Shown: one piece after another, positions 28,300 to 40,063 of the stretch
Layout: every line of letters starts with the position of its first letter
How positions within the stretch are numbered: the first letter of the stretch is position 1
Assembly: GCA_944325075.1 (NCBI GenBank)
Contig: CALUYU010000003.1
Span: 1 to 63,315, forward strand
Origin: Candidatus Gastranaerophilales bacterium
GTDB lineage: Bacteria > Cyanobacteriota > Vampirovibrionia > Gastranaerophilales > Gastranaerophilaceae
Direction: 5' to 3'
DNA length: 63,315 nucleotides
Notes under the pieces: model-generated
Told to the model about the DNA's origin: nothing
The model's input: only the letters and a program-made list of their open reading frames with translations
Databases searched by the model: none
Position numbers and translations under genes: made by a program

Positions 28300-28992
28300 A
28301 TGATTAGATCAGTTAATAATAATGATAATACAGTTTATACAGCCTTCAAAAACCATGGAGATGTAAAACGCGGCTATATCGCGTACAGATATCATACCTC
28401 AGAAAATGTAGATATCTCCACAAAGTTGAAATCAACGGCTGGAGCAGTTTTGGGGACTGCAATTCCGGTTTTATATTTTGCGAAAAAACAATCCGGGAAA
28501 GCTCCGACTTTAAAATCCGTATTACATTTAAATTATGGTTTAAAAGAAATGTTAGTGACCGGTATTAGCGCAATAGTCAGCGGGGCTGCATTCGGCATGA
28601 TTGGCGAAACTCGGAAAAAAAGGGATAGAAAACGTAAAGAAGCCGTATTTCAGATAATGAATACCTGCATGCCATTGCTGTTGGTTGAAGGATTTTTACG
28701 GCTTAGCAATAATGTTAAAGTATTAAATAACCGGGCCGCAAAACTTGGAGGAACTATTGGCGGTGTTGTACTGGGAATGATTGGCGGTGCTCATCTGTCC
28801 AATAAGATCAATGACCCGAAGGATCTTGAACCTGATAGAAAGCTTAATGTTAAAGATGCAATAGCAAATGTTGACGATGTTGTTGGCGCACTTATATTGG
28901 CCAAGTTCCCATTTATTGAAAAATTACATGCTCAAAAATTTCTCCCGGTAATATACGCATGGTGCGGTTATAGAGCAGGGCAAAGTAATTAA
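28300..28992 (+). CDS. Unknown membrane protein, lineage-type
   Basis: A 230-residue protein I do not recognise. It has a polar N terminus (VNNNDNTVYTAF), then four hydrophobic stretches at about 46-60, 85-105, 120-140 and 148-165, the last two Gly-rich (GGTIGGVVLGMIGGAHL), separated by a very basic RKKRDRKRKE loop. The C-terminal third has another hydrophobic stretch (VVGALILAKFPF). The N terminus resembles those of several other unknown proteins in this window (36397, 37436, 59873). It is convergent with uvrB, 19 bp apart. No function can be assigned. Confidence 0.7.
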   Translation: MIRSVNNNDNTVYTAFKNHGDVKRGYIAYRYHTSENVDISTKLKSTAGAVLGTAIPVLYFAKKQSGKAPTLKSVLHLNYGLKEMLVTGISAIVSGAAFGMIGETRKKRDRKRKEAVFQIMNTCMPLLLVEGFLRLSNNVKVLNNRAAKLGGTIGGVVLGMIGGAHLSNKINDPKDLEPDRKLNVKDAIANVDDVVGALILAKFPFIEKLHAQKFLPVIYAWCGYRAGQSN

Positions 28993-31071: not shown

Positions 31072-31100
31072 TTGACAAATAAAAATTTGCGTGTTATAAA
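31072..31100 (+). promoter_or_regulatory. Consensus sigma-70 promoter ahead of the attenuator-like leader
   Basis: TTGACA at 31072-31077, a 17-base spacer, and TATAAA at 31095-31100. The expected transcription start (about 31106-31108) coincides with the ATG of the leader peptide at 31107, so the leader mRNA may be leaderless or nearly so. Confidence 0.85.
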
Positions 31101-31106
31101 ATCACT

Positions 31107-31157
31107 ATGATTACTTTATTTTCTGAAAACCTAAAACATTCTTGGTGGCGCCTGTAG
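31107..31157 (+). CDS. Leader peptide with tandem Trp codons
   Basis: A 16-codon ORF, ATG 31107 to TAG 31155-31157, encoding MITLFSENLKHSWWRL. Two adjacent TGG codons (31143-31148) stand three and four codons before the stop, as in trp-type leader peptides that end in WWR. The stop region forms the first arm of the downstream hairpins. There is no ribosome-binding site, consistent with translation from the mRNA 5' end if transcription starts at 31107. That it is translated and senses charged tRNA-Trp is inference. Confidence 0.6.
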   Translation: MITLFSENLKHSWWRL

Positions 31158-31234
31158 TTTAAGTACAGGTCTTATAAGCATAGAAATTTTACTTTTTGCC
31201 TGTACTAATTTGAGTGCAGGTTATTTAGTTTATA
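31150..31234 (+). promoter_or_regulatory. Attenuator-like set of mutually exclusive hairpins
   Basis: Four segments alternate. Segment 1 CCTGTA (31151-31156, overlapping the leader-peptide stop) pairs with segment 2 TACAGG (31164-31169). Extended segment 2 AGTACAGG (31162-31169) is perfectly complementary to segment 3 CCTGTACT (31199-31206). Segment 3 also pairs with segment 4 AGTGCAGG (31213-31220; one G-U). The 3:4 hairpin is followed by a T-rich stretch (TTATTTAGTTT). A ribosome stalled at the Trp codons would cover segment 1 and favour 2:3, which would prevent 3:4. Whether 3:4 ends transcription or only affects translation (ribosome-binding site at 31234-31240) cannot be told. Confidence 0.6.
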
Positions 31235-31248
31235 AGAGGAAAATTTTT

Positions 31249-32505
31249 ATGCAAATATCATTAATTAACACATTATCCCAACCGCTTAAAGCAGCAGCAA
31301 AATTTATAAATTCACAAGAGCAAGCTTCAGGTCTTTCTACTTCCAGATTTATTCAGGATACATCAACATGTTTGCTTCCTAAAGCGGTTTTTGCAAGAAG
31401 TAAAGCCGATTTGGCTGAAAATGCGTTTCTTGAATTATCTGAAAGCGCCTTGGTTTATTTTGTTCCGGCCGTTATCGGTGAAAAAATTTCACGTAAACTT
31501 TTTTCAAAGAAGCTTCCGCAAGCAACAAAACAGCTTGTTGCTATACCGGCCCGGGAACTTCTAGAAATGAAAAATAAAGCAGCAGTAAAACAGGTACTTC
31601 CGATAAAAGCAGCTATTGCTTTAACAACAATGCTTATTCCACTGACTGAATTTACTCTGAATTATTTTAAGAATTTGTTTACTCTTAAAATATTTAAAAA
31701 AGGTGATTTCAACAGTATAGCAAATCTTGATAAACATGCTGAGAATAAAGAAAACGCAGAGCGGGTGGAAAAAAGTGCTAAAAAAAATATAAAACTTGCC
31801 GCAGGAATTTATTGCGCCTGCCTTACACTTGCGGGGCTTCTTGCGGTCAGTGGAGCAAAGTCTAAAACGCTGCAAAACATTTCAGAGTTAATACTTGCCC
31901 CTGGAACAAAATTGTTTAAAAATAATTCTAAAATAAAGAACTTTTTAAATAAATATGCAAGCATTGATTTTGCCTCTCAGGACGGAAAGCTGGTTTTAAG
32001 CAAGGGGCAGCTCACATCTTGTGTTGTCATTGGAGGGGCAGGATATTTCGGCGCTGCAAAAGACCGTGGCAAACAAAATTTTTTAGAAACGCTTTATCGA
32101 TTTCCGCTTGTTGGATTTTATATAATAACCGGCAGTGAACTTTTTGAAAAAGGTTTTAAAAAGCTTCTTTTAAAATCAGGCAAATGTAAAGATACTATTG
32201 ATAATAAACTTAACACTCCATCCTTTGATGAACTTGGCAAATATGCGACAAGTCTTGCTAAGCAGCGAGGAACTACTGTTGAACATGAATTTTCAAGACT
32301 GGCTAAGCAAAAGGTTCTTATCTCAGGTGTTCCTTTTATCTTCAGCATAGGATTTATGGGTTGTTTTGTTACCGCTGTATCAAATATGTTTACGAAATAC
32401 AGATATAACCATGATAAGAAAAATTTAACAAATAACTCTAGTGGCGTTTCCCGGAGCTGTTTGGATCAAAACGGTCTGCAAGAAAAGTTGAAATTAAAGG
32501 TATAA
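31249..32505 (+). CDS. Unknown multi-helix membrane protein behind an attenuator-like leader
   Basis: A 418-residue protein I do not recognise, starting at ATG 31249 (AAGAGGA at 31234-31240). Hydrophobic stretches occur at about 74-90 (ALVYFVPAVIG), 120-140 (ALTTMLIPLTEF), 185-205 (AAGIYCACLTLAGLLAV), 255-275 (SCVVIGGAGYFGAA), 290-305 and 365-385, separated by Lys-rich loops. There is no signal peptide or catalytic motif I can name. The general build (alternating hydrophobic blocks and basic loops) is like the opposite-strand protein at 32438-33412, whose 3' end overlaps this gene by 68 bases. Expression may be tied to tryptophan supply through the leader. Confidence 0.7.
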   Translation: MQISLINTLSQPLKAAAKFINSQEQASGLSTSRFIQDTSTCLLPKAVFARSKADLAENAFLELSESALVYFVPAVIGEKISRKLFSKKLPQATKQLVAIPARELLEMKNKAAVKQVLPIKAAIALTTMLIPLTEFTLNYFKNLFTLKIFKKGDFNSIANLDKHAENKENAERVEKSAKKNIKLAAGIYCACLTLAGLLAVSGAKSKTLQNISELILAPGTKLFKNNSKIKNFLNKYASIDFASQDGKLVLSKGQLTSCVVIGGAGYFGAAKDRGKQNFLETLYRFPLVGFYIITGSELFEKGFKKLLLKSGKCKDTIDNKLNTPSFDELGKYATSLAKQRGTTVEHEFSRLAKQKVLISGVPFIFSIGFMGCFVTAVSNMFTKYRYNHDKKNLTNNSSGVSRSCLDQNGLQEKLKLKV

Positions 32506-33412
32506 TGATGTAATAAATTCCGCCCATAATTAGAGCCGGCTTTGCGATTCTTATACCTTCTATATAAGTCGCAAGTTTCGGATCATTAATGTTAGCTTCT
32601 GTAAATTTCTTGATAAATTTTTCGGTAGAGTTTTTCGACAGATTGTTCAACGCATAACTTCCGCCGATACAAAGTGCTGTGGATATGCCGGCATTATACA
32701 TAAGCGCTTTTTTTCTTTCCTCCTTAATTTTTTTTGATTTTGATGTTTGGTTTATAAATGTGCCGGTTGCTAAAATGTCTGTAAGTGAAATGATGTGCAT
32801 TTCGTAATGTTTATCGTGAAATTTATCTGCCAGATTCTGGACGGCCTTGGTGTTTATTATTTTACCAAAAAATTTGGCAAGTTTATCTGTTCCGCTTTTG
32901 TATGACCCTGCGAAAGAAATATTTTTATTGTCTGATAATTTTTCTTTCTTTTTCCTATCAGGAAAAACTTTTGTCATCAAAGGAGGTATGAGTGCGCAAG
33001 TCAGAGTGGATTTTGGAACAGCCATAAAAAATCCCAGGCCAAGCGTAAATAGTTGTGTTGCAAACGTATATTTCCCCGAATTTTTTAAAGTAGTGTTTGG
33101 AGCTTTTAAATTATCAATAGTTCGTTTTTTTAAATATTTTAAAGGCTCCTTATCAATATTTTTTACTGCTCGCGAAACCGGATTTGAAGCCGCAAGCATT
33201 AATAAAAATCCTGTAAAACTGGAGGCAATTGATTTTACGCAAGCATATTTTTTGTTTTCGCGATCAGTATCAGGGGCTGCTAAAATCGCAAGCGGTCTGG
33301 CTGCAGTAGAAAGCACAAGAGATGCAGTAGTCGTGAATAATGCTCCTTTCCCGGCTGCAAACTCTAATCCTTTTTTCAAGAATTTATTGGTATATATCGG
33401 CTGTACTTTCAT
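32438..33412 (-). CDS. Unknown multi-helix membrane protein, convergent with 31249-32505
   Basis: A 324-residue protein without a recognisable family. Hydrophobic blocks are visible at about 24-45 (ALFTTTASLVLSTAARPLAIL), 62-76, 118-135, 240-260 and 288-312 (ALIMGGIYYIIIPLISTFLA). A central polar part contains NKNISFAGSYKSG. Its last 68 bases overlap the end of the opposite-strand gene, so the C-terminal residues of both proteins are encoded by the same DNA. It is divergent from pnuC with only 16 bp between the start codons. Topology by eye only. Confidence 0.7.
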   Translation of the reverse strand: MKVQPIYTNKFLKKGLEFAAGKGALFTTTASLVLSTAARPLAILAAPDTDRENKKYACVKSIASSFTGFLLMLAASNPVSRAVKNIDKEPLKYLKKRTIDNLKAPNTTLKNSGKYTFATQLFTLGLGFFMAVPKSTLTCALIPPLMTKVFPDRKKKEKLSDNKNISFAGSYKSGTDKLAKFFGKIINTKAVQNLADKFHDKHYEMHIISLTDILATGTFINQTSKSKKIKEERKKALMYNAGISTALCIGGSYALNNLSKNSTEKFIKKFTEANINDPKLATYIEGIRIAKPALIMGGIYYIIIPLISTFLADRFDPNSSGKRH

Positions 33413-36308: not shown

Positions 36309-36396
36309 TGTAAAAAAATGTAACAATATGATTAATGCTGGCAAAAAAAAATCTTGAGCGGCCTTATACTAACAGACATATATGTGTGGAGTTAAA

Positions 36397-37434
36397 ATGA
36401 TTTTACCTGTAAACAATTTTAGCAGTAATAATACTAATTTCACGGCCCGTAAACTCGATAAAGAAGAACTTAAGCATCATCCGGTTGTATTATTGGAAAA
36501 TAATTTTTCAACAAAGATGATGATCTGGTGGGACAAGTTTACGAATGCAACGACTATGTATCCGGCAAGAGGTTTAAAAGGTAGTAAAAATTCTAATTTT
36601 TATGAATTTTTAACCATGAGTATGATCCCAAATCTAACCGGTAGTTTAATGTTTATGGCTGTATTTAATTCTGCCAATAAGTTCTTCTCTCCGCCTGAAA
36701 AGATGACTGCCTCGAAATTTGGCAGCAAGATGGCTCTCGGGGTAATATTTTATGCATTGGCAAAAAATATTTCTAAAAGTTTTGTTACTAAACCGGTAAA
36801 ATGGGCTACCGGCGTTGATACTGAAGAGCCTTACGCGGAACTGAAATTTAAACTTCCAGAAAGTAAAAATGACACAGATATAACAAGTCTTGAATATCAT
36901 AAAGTTTTAGAAAGTCTTGAGTTCCCTCGTTGGGAAGTTAAATATGGAGATACGGAAAAAGGTGAACCGCGAAATATTTGGTTCGATAAAATCGCTAAAA
37001 AAATCGGTCTTGGTACTAATCTTAACGATTCAGACCAGGATGTGAAGCCTAGGGTTAAGGAAATTGCGGTAAAAACAAATCTTGCAAAAACATTCTCATC
37101 TTATTTATGGGCAGCTGCAGGTGTAGCCCTTGCACTTCAAAAACCTTGGGATGAATTTTTCAAGGTCGCAACCTGGAAAGTATGGAAAAAAGATCAATTC
37201 CTGAAAACAATAAAAACATTCTTTAGAAGTTTGGGAAATAGTGCGCTTGAAATGTTTAAAGGCCCTGCGGATGCAAAAGGTATTTTTGCAAAACATTGCG
37301 GAAAATCAGTGATAGGTCTTGCGGCCTTTTCTACTTTGGCCGGATTGGCAAATGTACTTATTAGCAGAGATAAGCCTTCAAAACTTGATTCTGCTGATGT
37401 AATTGAAAAGAATAGAAAGTATGTGGTGAATTAG
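36397..37434 (+). CDS. Unknown protein with paired membrane segments, first of a three-gene operon
   Basis: A 345-residue protein of no family I recognise. I start at ATG 36397 because GTGGAG (36386-36391) precedes it; an ATG at 36382 is in frame. The N terminus reads ILPVNNF then NNTNFTARK, a short motif shared with other unknown proteins in the window. Hydrophobic segments: about 75-95 (LTGSLMFMAVF), 105-122 (MALGVIFYALA), 225-240 (SSYLWAAAGVALAL) and 308-325 (VIGLAAFSTLAGLANVL), with a long hydrophilic middle. One base separates its stop from the next gene, and a GH13-type enzyme gene completes the operon. Confidence 0.72.
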   Translation: MILPVNNFSSNNTNFTARKLDKEELKHHPVVLLENNFSTKMMIWWDKFTNATTMYPARGLKGSKNSNFYEFLTMSMIPNLTGSLMFMAVFNSANKFFSPPEKMTASKFGSKMALGVIFYALAKNISKSFVTKPVKWATGVDTEEPYAELKFKLPESKNDTDITSLEYHKVLESLEFPRWEVKYGDTEKGEPRNIWFDKIAKKIGLGTNLNDSDQDVKPRVKEIAVKTNLAKTFSSYLWAAAGVALALQKPWDEFFKVATWKVWKKDQFLKTIKTFFRSLGNSALEMFKGPADAKGIFAKHCGKSVIGLAAFSTLAGLANVLISRDKPSKLDSADVIEKNRKYVVN

Positions 37435-37435
37435 T

Positions 37436-40063
37436 ATGCGGACAAATATGATTAATAACTTCGTACTTAATAAAAGGCCTTCATTTTCATCAGAAGAATC
37501 TGTAAAACCTGATGAAATAGAAATTGTTACGCGCCGCAAGGTCAAACCTGATTTTGATATTCATCGGGAGCTTGCAAATCGTACATTTATCCAGCCGCTG
37601 CCACCTAAAGGCCATATAATAAAAAACAGTATAACCTCAGCTCCTCAGTACTTTGTTGATGATATTGTTACTGATTTTAAAGCTCTGAAGTCTGCCTGGA
37701 AAGGTGATGCCAATGACCATCAGTTAGGAAAATTAAATGATCTTGGTATGAAACTTGGCGGATTAGCTATTGCTACATACCTGTTTTCGATGAAAAAAAG
37801 CCCGGTAACAAAAGCAATGGAATTTGTGGGCTTGGGCTCATTTTTTGCCTCAATGGCATTGTGGCCTAAAATTGCGCTGGATATCCCTGCCAGAATAATA
37901 CATGGTTTTAGTCCGTTTATGATGTATCAGGACAGCCAGGGCCGTAAAAAACGTTTCTTTAGCGACAATCAGTTTATTGCGTACGATATGCTGAGTGATA
38001 AAGATATAAACAGAATTGGCAACCACATGCGCATACCGAAAAATATGCCTAACAGAAGAGACGCTGTTCAGGAAAAAATGCGCCAGATTGCTTTACAGAA
38101 TAATACGATGTGGATGTTAACGGCAGGTTTTGCTACTCCGGTTATGAGTTCCCTTATCTGTAACAGACTCGAACCTTATGTTGAGAAATTGCAAAATTAC
38201 TATATGAACAAGAAAATTGACAACATTCTTGTTAATTTCTCAACAGTAAGCAAAAACTTTAGGACTGATGATATTATTAATAATGTAAACAGAGTTATCG
38301 AATTAAATAGCGGAAAACCTGTAACAGAAGATTTAATAGAAGAACTCTCCGATGCTCTTGTAACAAGACTTGATCCGAATGTAAAAATCGGTGTTAAGAA
38401 AGACCTGGAAAGACTATTCCCGAGCGGACAATACAAGATTACCGAAACTCAGACAAAATCTATAGCGGATTCGGTTCGTGGAATTTTACAGCGAACCGCT
38501 ATAGATAAAATACTTCCGCAAAATTTGAATGTAATAATTCCGTCCCAGGAACAAATTCATTCTCTTTTAACTACTGAAAAATATTATGGACGTCCTCTTG
38601 GAATCAGAGATATTCGCTCAATTATTTCAGAAATAACGCTTATTGTTGAAGACAATATTGAACATCTTGAAACAAGCGGGGCATCAGTTTCAAATAATTT
38701 GAAACGCCGGTTAGTTGGAGCGTTGCTTGAGGGGCCGTCGGATAATAACCTTAAATCTCTTGAAGAGGTTTTGACTTCAAGATCTGCTAATATATTAGAC
38801 GAAAATTCTATTAAACTTATAAAAAGTTTTGCAAATGAAATGACTGCTTTTTGTTCGGAAAATACAGCACTAAATGTATATTCCTACAGAAAACTTGCCC
38901 AAGCACCAAATACAGCTAAAGCAAAATATTGGAATGATGTTGTTAACTCGCTGCTTGATATTTTAAAAATTACACCGCAGGAAATTGAAGATACAAGATT
39001 TGACCGAACCATGGTCGGCGATTTGTTCAATAAAAAAGTTTGGGAGTTTGCGACTTCATCTCCGGAAGAATATAAAAAATTTGTCGGAAACCTGGCTGCA
39101 AAACTTTCCCAAATTGAGAAACATGTTAAGCCTGATGATATGACAGGGAAGTTTATTAAGCAGGTTGAAACTTCTTTAAATGCTGCTGCTACCCGTTTCA
39201 GAACATTTGATCCATCGTTCAAATTTGAATATACTGCAAGAAAACTTGTCGGTTATAAAGGTAAGGAAAACGGCAGTTTAATGGGAATTACAAAAGCTTT
39301 TGTTAATGATAATTTGTCAAACCTGAAAAATACATTTGCGGCTGTATTAAATAAAGTTAATACATATAGAACTATATACAAGAATCCGGACTTTAAATTC
39401 CTTGGAAAAGACCAAATTCCGAGAGAAATAAAGGAAGAAATTACCGGATTTATAGAATACCTCACTACAGAAGGCAGAATATCAGATTACTCCGTAAAAT
39501 TTGAAGTTCTAAGAAACCTCAGACCAAATAAAGATGATAAAGATGCTATTGCATTCAATAAGGATGGATCTGTAAACTATAAATATTACAATAAAGAAAA
39601 ACTTTCAAAACATGGAGTATTTATTCCTAGTGATATAAGCTTTTTCAAGCGTGTAATGAATACATTGTTTGGTATTCCGTTAAATTCCGAAACAACAGCT
39701 GCTCTGGCAGATCATTCTTCTGTAAAACGTATCCTTGAAGATTATCGAAATAACATGTCCTCGGCAGTTGGAAATATGTATAACTTTATGTTCCCGGATC
39801 ATGTTGTAAATGATCAATGGGATTACAAGCCTGATGGTTCTAAACAAAGAATTTATTCAAGCTCAACTCCGAAATATAGAAGTAATGCCGTTGGGGCAGC
39901 GTTGGATGAAGTGTTGGCTAACAGCTGTAAACAAAGTTATAATACCAGAAAATGGCTGAAAATGTTTGGCGGGTTTGGGGCAGGACTTTTAGGCTTTACG
40001 GTTCTTTCTCAGTTCTTCTTTGGCCGCGGTAATAATAAACATTTAAAAAAAGGCAAGGTGTAG
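37436..40063 (+). CDS. Large unknown protein (875 aa) with terminal membrane segments
   Basis: The N terminus (MINNFVLNKRPSFSSEES) carries the same N-N-x...[PN]-x-F-[ST] pattern as its neighbours. Residues ~100-150 hold two hydrophobic stretches (LGGLAIATYLF; FVGLGSFFASMAL), another lies near 225 (AGFATPVMSSLI), and one closes the protein (GFGAGLLGFTVLSQFFF, about 848-865). The intervening ~600 residues are hydrophilic and helical in character, rich in Lys/Asp/Asn, without a motif I recognise. It starts 1 bp after 36397-37434 and stops 3 bp before the GH13-type gene, so the three are almost certainly one transcript. Confidence 0.72.
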   Translation: MRTNMINNFVLNKRPSFSSEESVKPDEIEIVTRRKVKPDFDIHRELANRTFIQPLPPKGHIIKNSITSAPQYFVDDIVTDFKALKSAWKGDANDHQLGKLNDLGMKLGGLAIATYLFSMKKSPVTKAMEFVGLGSFFASMALWPKIALDIPARIIHGFSPFMMYQDSQGRKKRFFSDNQFIAYDMLSDKDINRIGNHMRIPKNMPNRRDAVQEKMRQIALQNNTMWMLTAGFATPVMSSLICNRLEPYVEKLQNYYMNKKIDNILVNFSTVSKNFRTDDIINNVNRVIELNSGKPVTEDLIEELSDALVTRLDPNVKIGVKKDLERLFPSGQYKITETQTKSIADSVRGILQRTAIDKILPQNLNVIIPSQEQIHSLLTTEKYYGRPLGIRDIRSIISEITLIVEDNIEHLETSGASVSNNLKRRLVGALLEGPSDNNLKSLEEVLTSRSANILDENSIKLIKSFANEMTAFCSENTALNVYSYRKLAQAPNTAKAKYWNDVVNSLLDILKITPQEIEDTRFDRTMVGDLFNKKVWEFATSSPEEYKKFVGNLAAKLSQIEKHVKPDDMTGKFIKQVETSLNAAATRFRTFDPSFKFEYTARKLVGYKGKENGSLMGITKAFVNDNLSNLKNTFAAVLNKVNTYRTIYKNPDFKFLGKDQIPREIKEEITGFIEYLTTEGRISDYSVKFEVLRNLRPNKDDKDAIAFNKDGSVNYKYYNKEKLSKHGVFIPSDISFFKRVMNTLFGIPLNSETTAALADHSSVKRILEDYRNNMSSAVGNMYNFMFPDHVVNDQWDYKPDGSKQRIYSSSTPKYRSNAVGAALDEVLANSCKQSYNTRKWLKMFGGFGAGLLGFTVLSQFFFGRGNNKHLKKGKV

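Follow-up and report, generated by a model that had tools for sequence, protein, structure and literature searches.

Which signal does the RNA in front of an uncharacterised gene of Gastranaerophilales read, and what does that gene contribute to the cell? The window, that is, the whole stretch of 63,315 nucleotides analysed here, carries at positions 31072–31248 a promoter, a short leader open reading frame (ORF) with two adjacent Trp codons and a set of alternative RNA pairings, directly upstream of the gene. This region is very probably a ribosome-mediated, Trp-sensing attenuator that is on in Trp starvation, and the product most likely aids the acquisition of Trp.

Layout of the locus and start of the leader

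All features are located on the forward strand. The promoter (31072–31100) comprises a -35 hexamer TTGACA (31072–31077), a 17-nt spacer and a -10 hexamer TATAAA (31095–31100), and six bases separate the latter from the ATG at 31107. There the putative leader ORF MITLFSENLKHSWWRL begins (31107–31157), with codons extending to 31154 and the stop TAG at 31155–31157. The tandem Trp codons TGG TGG, the proposed stalling site, occupy 31143–31148. Segment 1, GCCTGTA (31150–31156; core CCTGTA, 31151–31156), overlaps the leader stop and pairs with segment 2, AGTACAGGT (31162–31170; core AGTACAGG, 31162–31169). The other partner of segment 2 is segment 3, GCCTGTACT (31198–31206; core CCTGTACT, 31199–31206), in what would be the antiterminator, and segment 3 may instead pair with segment 4, AGTGCAGG (31213–31220), to give a terminator-like hairpin followed by the weak T-rich tail TTATTTAGT, which ends at 31229. 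The Shine–Dalgarno (SD) sequence AGAGG (31235–31239) precedes the structural gene (31249–32505), which encodes a basic, helical, probably membrane-located protein of 418 residues. Promoter, leader ORF, Trp codons, the four segments and the gene start had all been described in the earlier note and were found again at the same positions.

The position of the promoter relative to the leader is itself conserved. The distance from the start of TTGAC to the leader ATG is exactly 35 nt in 38 loci, and 3 others have 36 nt. The loci with the 35-nt distance supply 32 distinct promoters, from relatives chosen for TTGAC at -35; in these the A at -11 is invariant, and T occupies -7 in 31 and -1 in all 32. 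From this spacing, the canonical start would therefore be the A of the leader ATG. An SD-like tetramer precedes the leader in 0 of the 32 members of this TTGAC-selected set, compared with 31 of 48 among the others. Translation of a leaderless leader, as proposed earlier, thus receives strong comparative support from promoter spacing and from the lack of an SD in 32 distinct relatives, and a leader peptide whose predicted +1 falls on the A of the ATG at 31107 is supported at the level of sequence. The consensus promoter scan missed the window promoter because it demands a -10 hexamer that ends in T.

Conservation of the leader and its pairings

Relatives of the structural gene were drawn from Gastranaerophilales MAGs, and within the phylum sample the family was found solely in this order. 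Three loci (L060, L087 and L099) are labelled Clostridia or Fusobacterium yet fall inside the Gastranaerophilales tree, and look mislabelled. In 92 of the 93 loci having upstream DNA, the gene is preceded by a short ORF containing two Trp codons side by side in frame (WW); six of these loci were fetched twice, leaving about 86 distinct ones. The N-terminal residues of the leaders vary while WW is constant. In 86 of 92 loci, segments 2 and 3 are more complementary than expected from shuffling the downstream region (p<=0.05), and 65 distinct helices are represented. The earlier note would have been contradicted by relatives that keep the gene and lose the Trp codons or the pairing; nearly all relatives retain both, and the pairing covaries. 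Judged by comparison of sequences, such conservation puts the observation in the window far beyond chance. As side observations, locus L011 has a single leader Trp codon (SWRSLT) on a long protein branch, possibly a decaying or re-tuned switch, and in every class LN is frequent at two to three residues ahead of WW (leader peptides L001–L122). The latter conservation is not accounted for by codon stalling alone and could point to an effect of the nascent peptide.

The loci fall into four RNA classes. Class A leaders end in WWRL before the stop, as in the window, and T-run terminators are present in many of these relatives. Class A' shares the 1:2 and 2:3 pairings of class A and has a weak 3:4. 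In class B, leaders end in WWRGLV and variants, segment 2 is TAACTACCC and segment 3 is GGGTAGTTA, followed by about 100 nt of additional conserved RNA. Class C has long leaders (e.g., WWHLSKETGNLSWQ, then the stop) and a strong T-run terminator. No clear T-run terminator follows 3:4 in classes A' and B, so the output stage may differ there.

Covariation was absent within class A, whose nearly invariant core makes it too uniform for such a test, and the evidence comes from classes B and C. In class C, both partners have changed in seven of nine 2:3 pairs (score 0.419 versus 0.202 for shuffled data, 0/500), and slid versions of the helix are 29–40% paired, compared with 89% for the real register. 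Five of 12 pairs are compensatory in class B (0.313 versus 0.178, 0/500), a score that also exceeds those of slid partners. For the 1:2 helix, compensatory changes occur in class C but hardly at all in class B. The ordered 1:2, 2:3, 3:4 logic of trp-type attenuation claimed for the window is borne out to this extent: 1:2 and 2:3 persist with compensatory changes, and 3:4 is followed by a T-run terminator in many relatives.

Searches for known regulatory RNAs gave no match in Rfam for the window and 12 relatives. Of 57 genomes, 11 contain the class A/C WW-hairpin pattern, each as a single copy, and those hits that were compared sit before the structural gene. Two features peculiar to class B were also seen. 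The conserved RNA of about 100 nt between segment 3 and the SD, GGTTTTGTCTGC ... TTGTAAACAAAACC ... CACAAGTTTTAGGA (L069:2380-2470 and equivalents; alignment A5, columns 100–205), has no Rfam match. A perfect palindrome, TTGTATCGATATATCGATACAA, lies directly upstream of the leader ATG in 18 loci (L069, L076, L090, L096, L105, L114 and others) and is probably the operator of a DNA-binding protein.

Tryptophan supply, the structural protein and its sister clade

The genome containing the window is 99.99% complete, and neither a trpB above the family cut-off nor indole-3-glycerol-phosphate synthase (IGPS) was detected in it. IGPS is absent from 15 of 16 tested genomes carrying the structural gene, the present one included, and the control was positive in 14 of 14. 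Some relatives retain trpB alone, perhaps for the use of indole. A simple anticorrelation of the structural gene with trpB was considered and not seen, although those 15 of 16 lack IGPS, the pathway marker. Among relatives that do have trp genes, no Trp-run leader was found before trpE in three genomes or before trpB in four. For a cell unable to make Trp, classical trp attenuation would be useless, and regulation of its acquisition is the natural alternative.

The structural protein contains 62 K+R against 32 D+E, and its AlphaFold2 model is helical and confident (pLDDT 90.6). Its earlier description as a multi-helix membrane protein is likely to be right, with only moderate backing from hydropathy: four peaks exceed 1.3 (59–77, 112–130, 183–201 and 356–374), two of them clear. 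No Pfam or NCBIfam match and no convincing PDB sequence match was obtained, in agreement with the previous statement that this is not a trp biosynthetic gene, and Foldseek with the model returned no match at E<=0.001. VIA-align showed at best a weak ABC-exporter-like arrangement: its top rows are transmembrane parts of such exporters at Z 5.8, too low to carry meaning for helical bundles. A transport role would be assigned from context and composition, the protein having no fold or family match, and the surface function suggested before is not supported over amino-acid acquisition. Several neighbouring proteins (window 28300–28992, 32438–33412, 36382–37434 and 37436–40063) likewise have no confident Pfam or NCBIfam match and are seemingly lineage-specific; paralogy of the structural protein with neighbouring uncharacterised proteins was rejected, as BLAST detected no similarity.

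Composition of the protein offers an independent witness. The window protein contains zero Trp, and 90 distinct proteins of its clade have 4 Trp in 36,224 residues, versus 98 in 15,960 for a sister clade of paralogs (Fisher p 3e-45, a value that ignores relatedness and should not be read literally, the weight of the composition evidence lying in the split between clades and not in p-values). In 16 diverse members of the Trp clade there are 4 Trp in 6,545 residues, where about 46 are expected at the window rate. Three of the four Trp residues in the Trp clade share one site (NW), which is Trp in the sister clade, and belong to deep-branching members. The content of F and Y does not differ between the two clades.

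The sister clade consists of paralogs at 41–50% identity and is separated by one clean tree split with support of 100/100. A Met-rich leader (e.g., MRKNNTMMMQMMMCGLNKGGHCCANRMC, then the stop) followed by a strong terminator was found at all 30 of its loci fetched order-wide, and this leader is probably a methionine-sensing leader-peptide attenuator. Loci of this clade are L016–L024, L026–L030 and L142–L171. Trp is normal in the sister clade (0.61%), whereas Met (0.61%) and Cys (0.48%) fall below the values of the Trp clade (1.38% and 1.16%). Each paralog thus looks built for synthesis under shortage of the amino acid that its leader senses, and its role is probably to acquire that amino acid. 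Taken together, leader and protein composition link each clade to an amino acid, and the leader indicates the purpose of an otherwise unrecognisable family, Trp for one clade and Met/Cys for the other. Whether Gastranaerophilales possess in these two clades a new family of proteins for amino-acid acquisition, each clade switched on by a leader-peptide attenuator that reads its own amino acid and each purged of it, is regarded here as an evenly balanced proposition. Reading leader codons together with composition would offer a general route to predicting the roles of uncharacterised genes.

Mode of action and comparison with described attenuators

In the proposed mechanism, transcription would begin at the leader ATG, as judged from promoter spacing, and translation of the leader would need no ribosome-binding site. 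A shortage of charged tRNA-Trp would make the ribosome stall at TGG TGG and cover segment 1; 2:3 could then form, excluding 3:4 and the helix behind it, and RNA polymerase would read through while the SD of the gene remains free. With ample Trp, the ribosome would reach the stop within segment 1, blocking 2:3, so that 3:4 would form and transcription would end, the SD would be masked, or both. Trp starvation would in this way switch the gene on in a Trp auxotroph, and the nearly Trp-free product, most likely a transporter or uptake component, would help to acquire Trp.

Folding of the window RNA is consistent with such a switch. The region 31107–31260 is more stable than its shuffles (z -3.0; 2/200 shuffles equally good), with energies of -8.1 kcal/mol for the 1:2 hairpin, -13.7 for the 2:3 duplex and -12.4 for 3:4, and the 2:3 helix outdoes a shuffled downstream region (p 0.007). 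The 3:4 hairpin was flagged as terminator-like by the scan. Its tail is only TTATTTAGTTT (TTATTTAG), a weak terminator tail, and termination in the window copy should therefore be partial. In the closest relatives the tail is TTTTTTAG or stronger. The trp-type transcription terminator of the earlier note is hence convincing in relatives and weak in the window copy, where 3:4 may act as a weak terminator and perhaps also mask the downstream ribosome site.

These properties lend some weight to a mainly translational attenuation, in which the 2:3/3:4 switch would set the masking of the SD and start codon (31235–31251) by 31178–31195, with little termination at this locus. An anti-SD arm, GCATAGAAATTTTACTTT (31178–31195), pairs with 31234–31252 in both the minimum-free-energy (MFE) and centroid structures of the whole region, hiding the SD and ATG of the gene; similar arms are present in the closest relatives (GCATAAAATTTT / AAATTTTTATGC), and such an output would also fit the A' and B relatives without a T-run terminator. 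Nevertheless, the masking helix is AT-rich and was observed only among close relatives, GTACAGGTTTTTTAG in those relatives is a fair terminator, and the terminators of class C are strong. Masking as the main output is a tentative reading, less likely than not. At equilibrium, 3:4 together with the SD-masking structure (-28 kcal/mol) is favoured even with segment 1 masked, so the choice between the two states must be made while the RNA is being transcribed.

A different signal is conceivable, namely a TnaC-like arrangement in which excess free Trp makes the leader peptide stall its ribosome and the gene is turned on for Trp export or breakdown. The LNxxWW context, partly conserved beyond the Trp codons, resembles that of an arrest peptide, but adjacent Trp codons directly before segment 1 and a stop inside it follow the logic of codon starvation. 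A Trp-purged product fits synthesis in scarcity and not in excess, and the genomes have no Trp pathway, all of which makes this arrangement very unlikely. It is highly improbable, too, that the RNA or peptide is mainly trans-acting like rnTrpL/peTrpL of Sinorhizobium meliloti, with its position before the gene being secondary: the leaderless start and Trp codons recall peTrpL (PMC7298713), but there is one WW-hairpin copy per genome, lying before the structural gene in the genomes checked, and the 2:3 pairing covaries in cis. A chance short ORF with palindromes, such as a repressor operator pair, as the short hairpins and the GTACT-AGTGC-like arms might suggest by eye, is refuted by the in-frame WW, ORF and stop kept in 92 of 93 loci and by covarying pairing that outlasts sequence change.

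The preferred reading, Trp starvation sensed by a stalled ribosome, belongs to a known kind, trp attenuation; what is new is the gene family that it precedes. Like the E. coli trp attenuator (trpL; RF00513 Trp_leader), the locus has a short leader, adjacent Trp codons with the stop directly after them, and ordered 1:2, 2:3 and 3:4 pairings. It differs in that the target is an uncharacterised protein, not a trp enzyme, in Trp auxotrophs, that the class A leader is predicted to be leaderless, and that the window terminator is weak and SD masking possible. The RF00513 covariance model gave no match in the window and none above its cut-off (gathering score) in 16 genomes. In S. meliloti, the 5' end of the trpLE(G) leader RNA is the ATG itself, and consecutive Trp codons lie in a leaderless peTrpL (PMC7298713), as predicted here. 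That attenuator, however, controls the biosynthetic trpE(G) and also acts in trans, and it is unrelated in lineage and sequence.

Leader peptides that sense codon runs are also described in other phyla, for instance the hisS/hisZ attenuators of bacilli (PMC2965389) and a Leu-rich leader peptide in Staphylococcus aureus (PMC5794164), which differ in amino acid, target gene and phylum. According to the 2010 paper (PMC2965389), none was known beyond Proteobacteria and Actinobacteria except its own case in bacilli and an atypical ermC leader. With the present locus, ribosome-mediated amino-acid attenuation would extend to a gut lineage of non-photosynthetic Cyanobacteriota, for which no report was found in the open-access literature, and to a non-biosynthetic gene in Trp auxotrophs. 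Avoidance of a sensed amino acid has a precedent in the low cognate bias of biosynthetic enzymes, which are needed in starvation and avoid their own amino acid, strongly so for Trp (PMC4209129). The present proteins would share this avoidance of the amino acid in short supply, but theirs is a non-biosynthetic family, the avoidance is reciprocal between two paralog clades reading different amino acids, and it is stronger, with mostly zero Trp.
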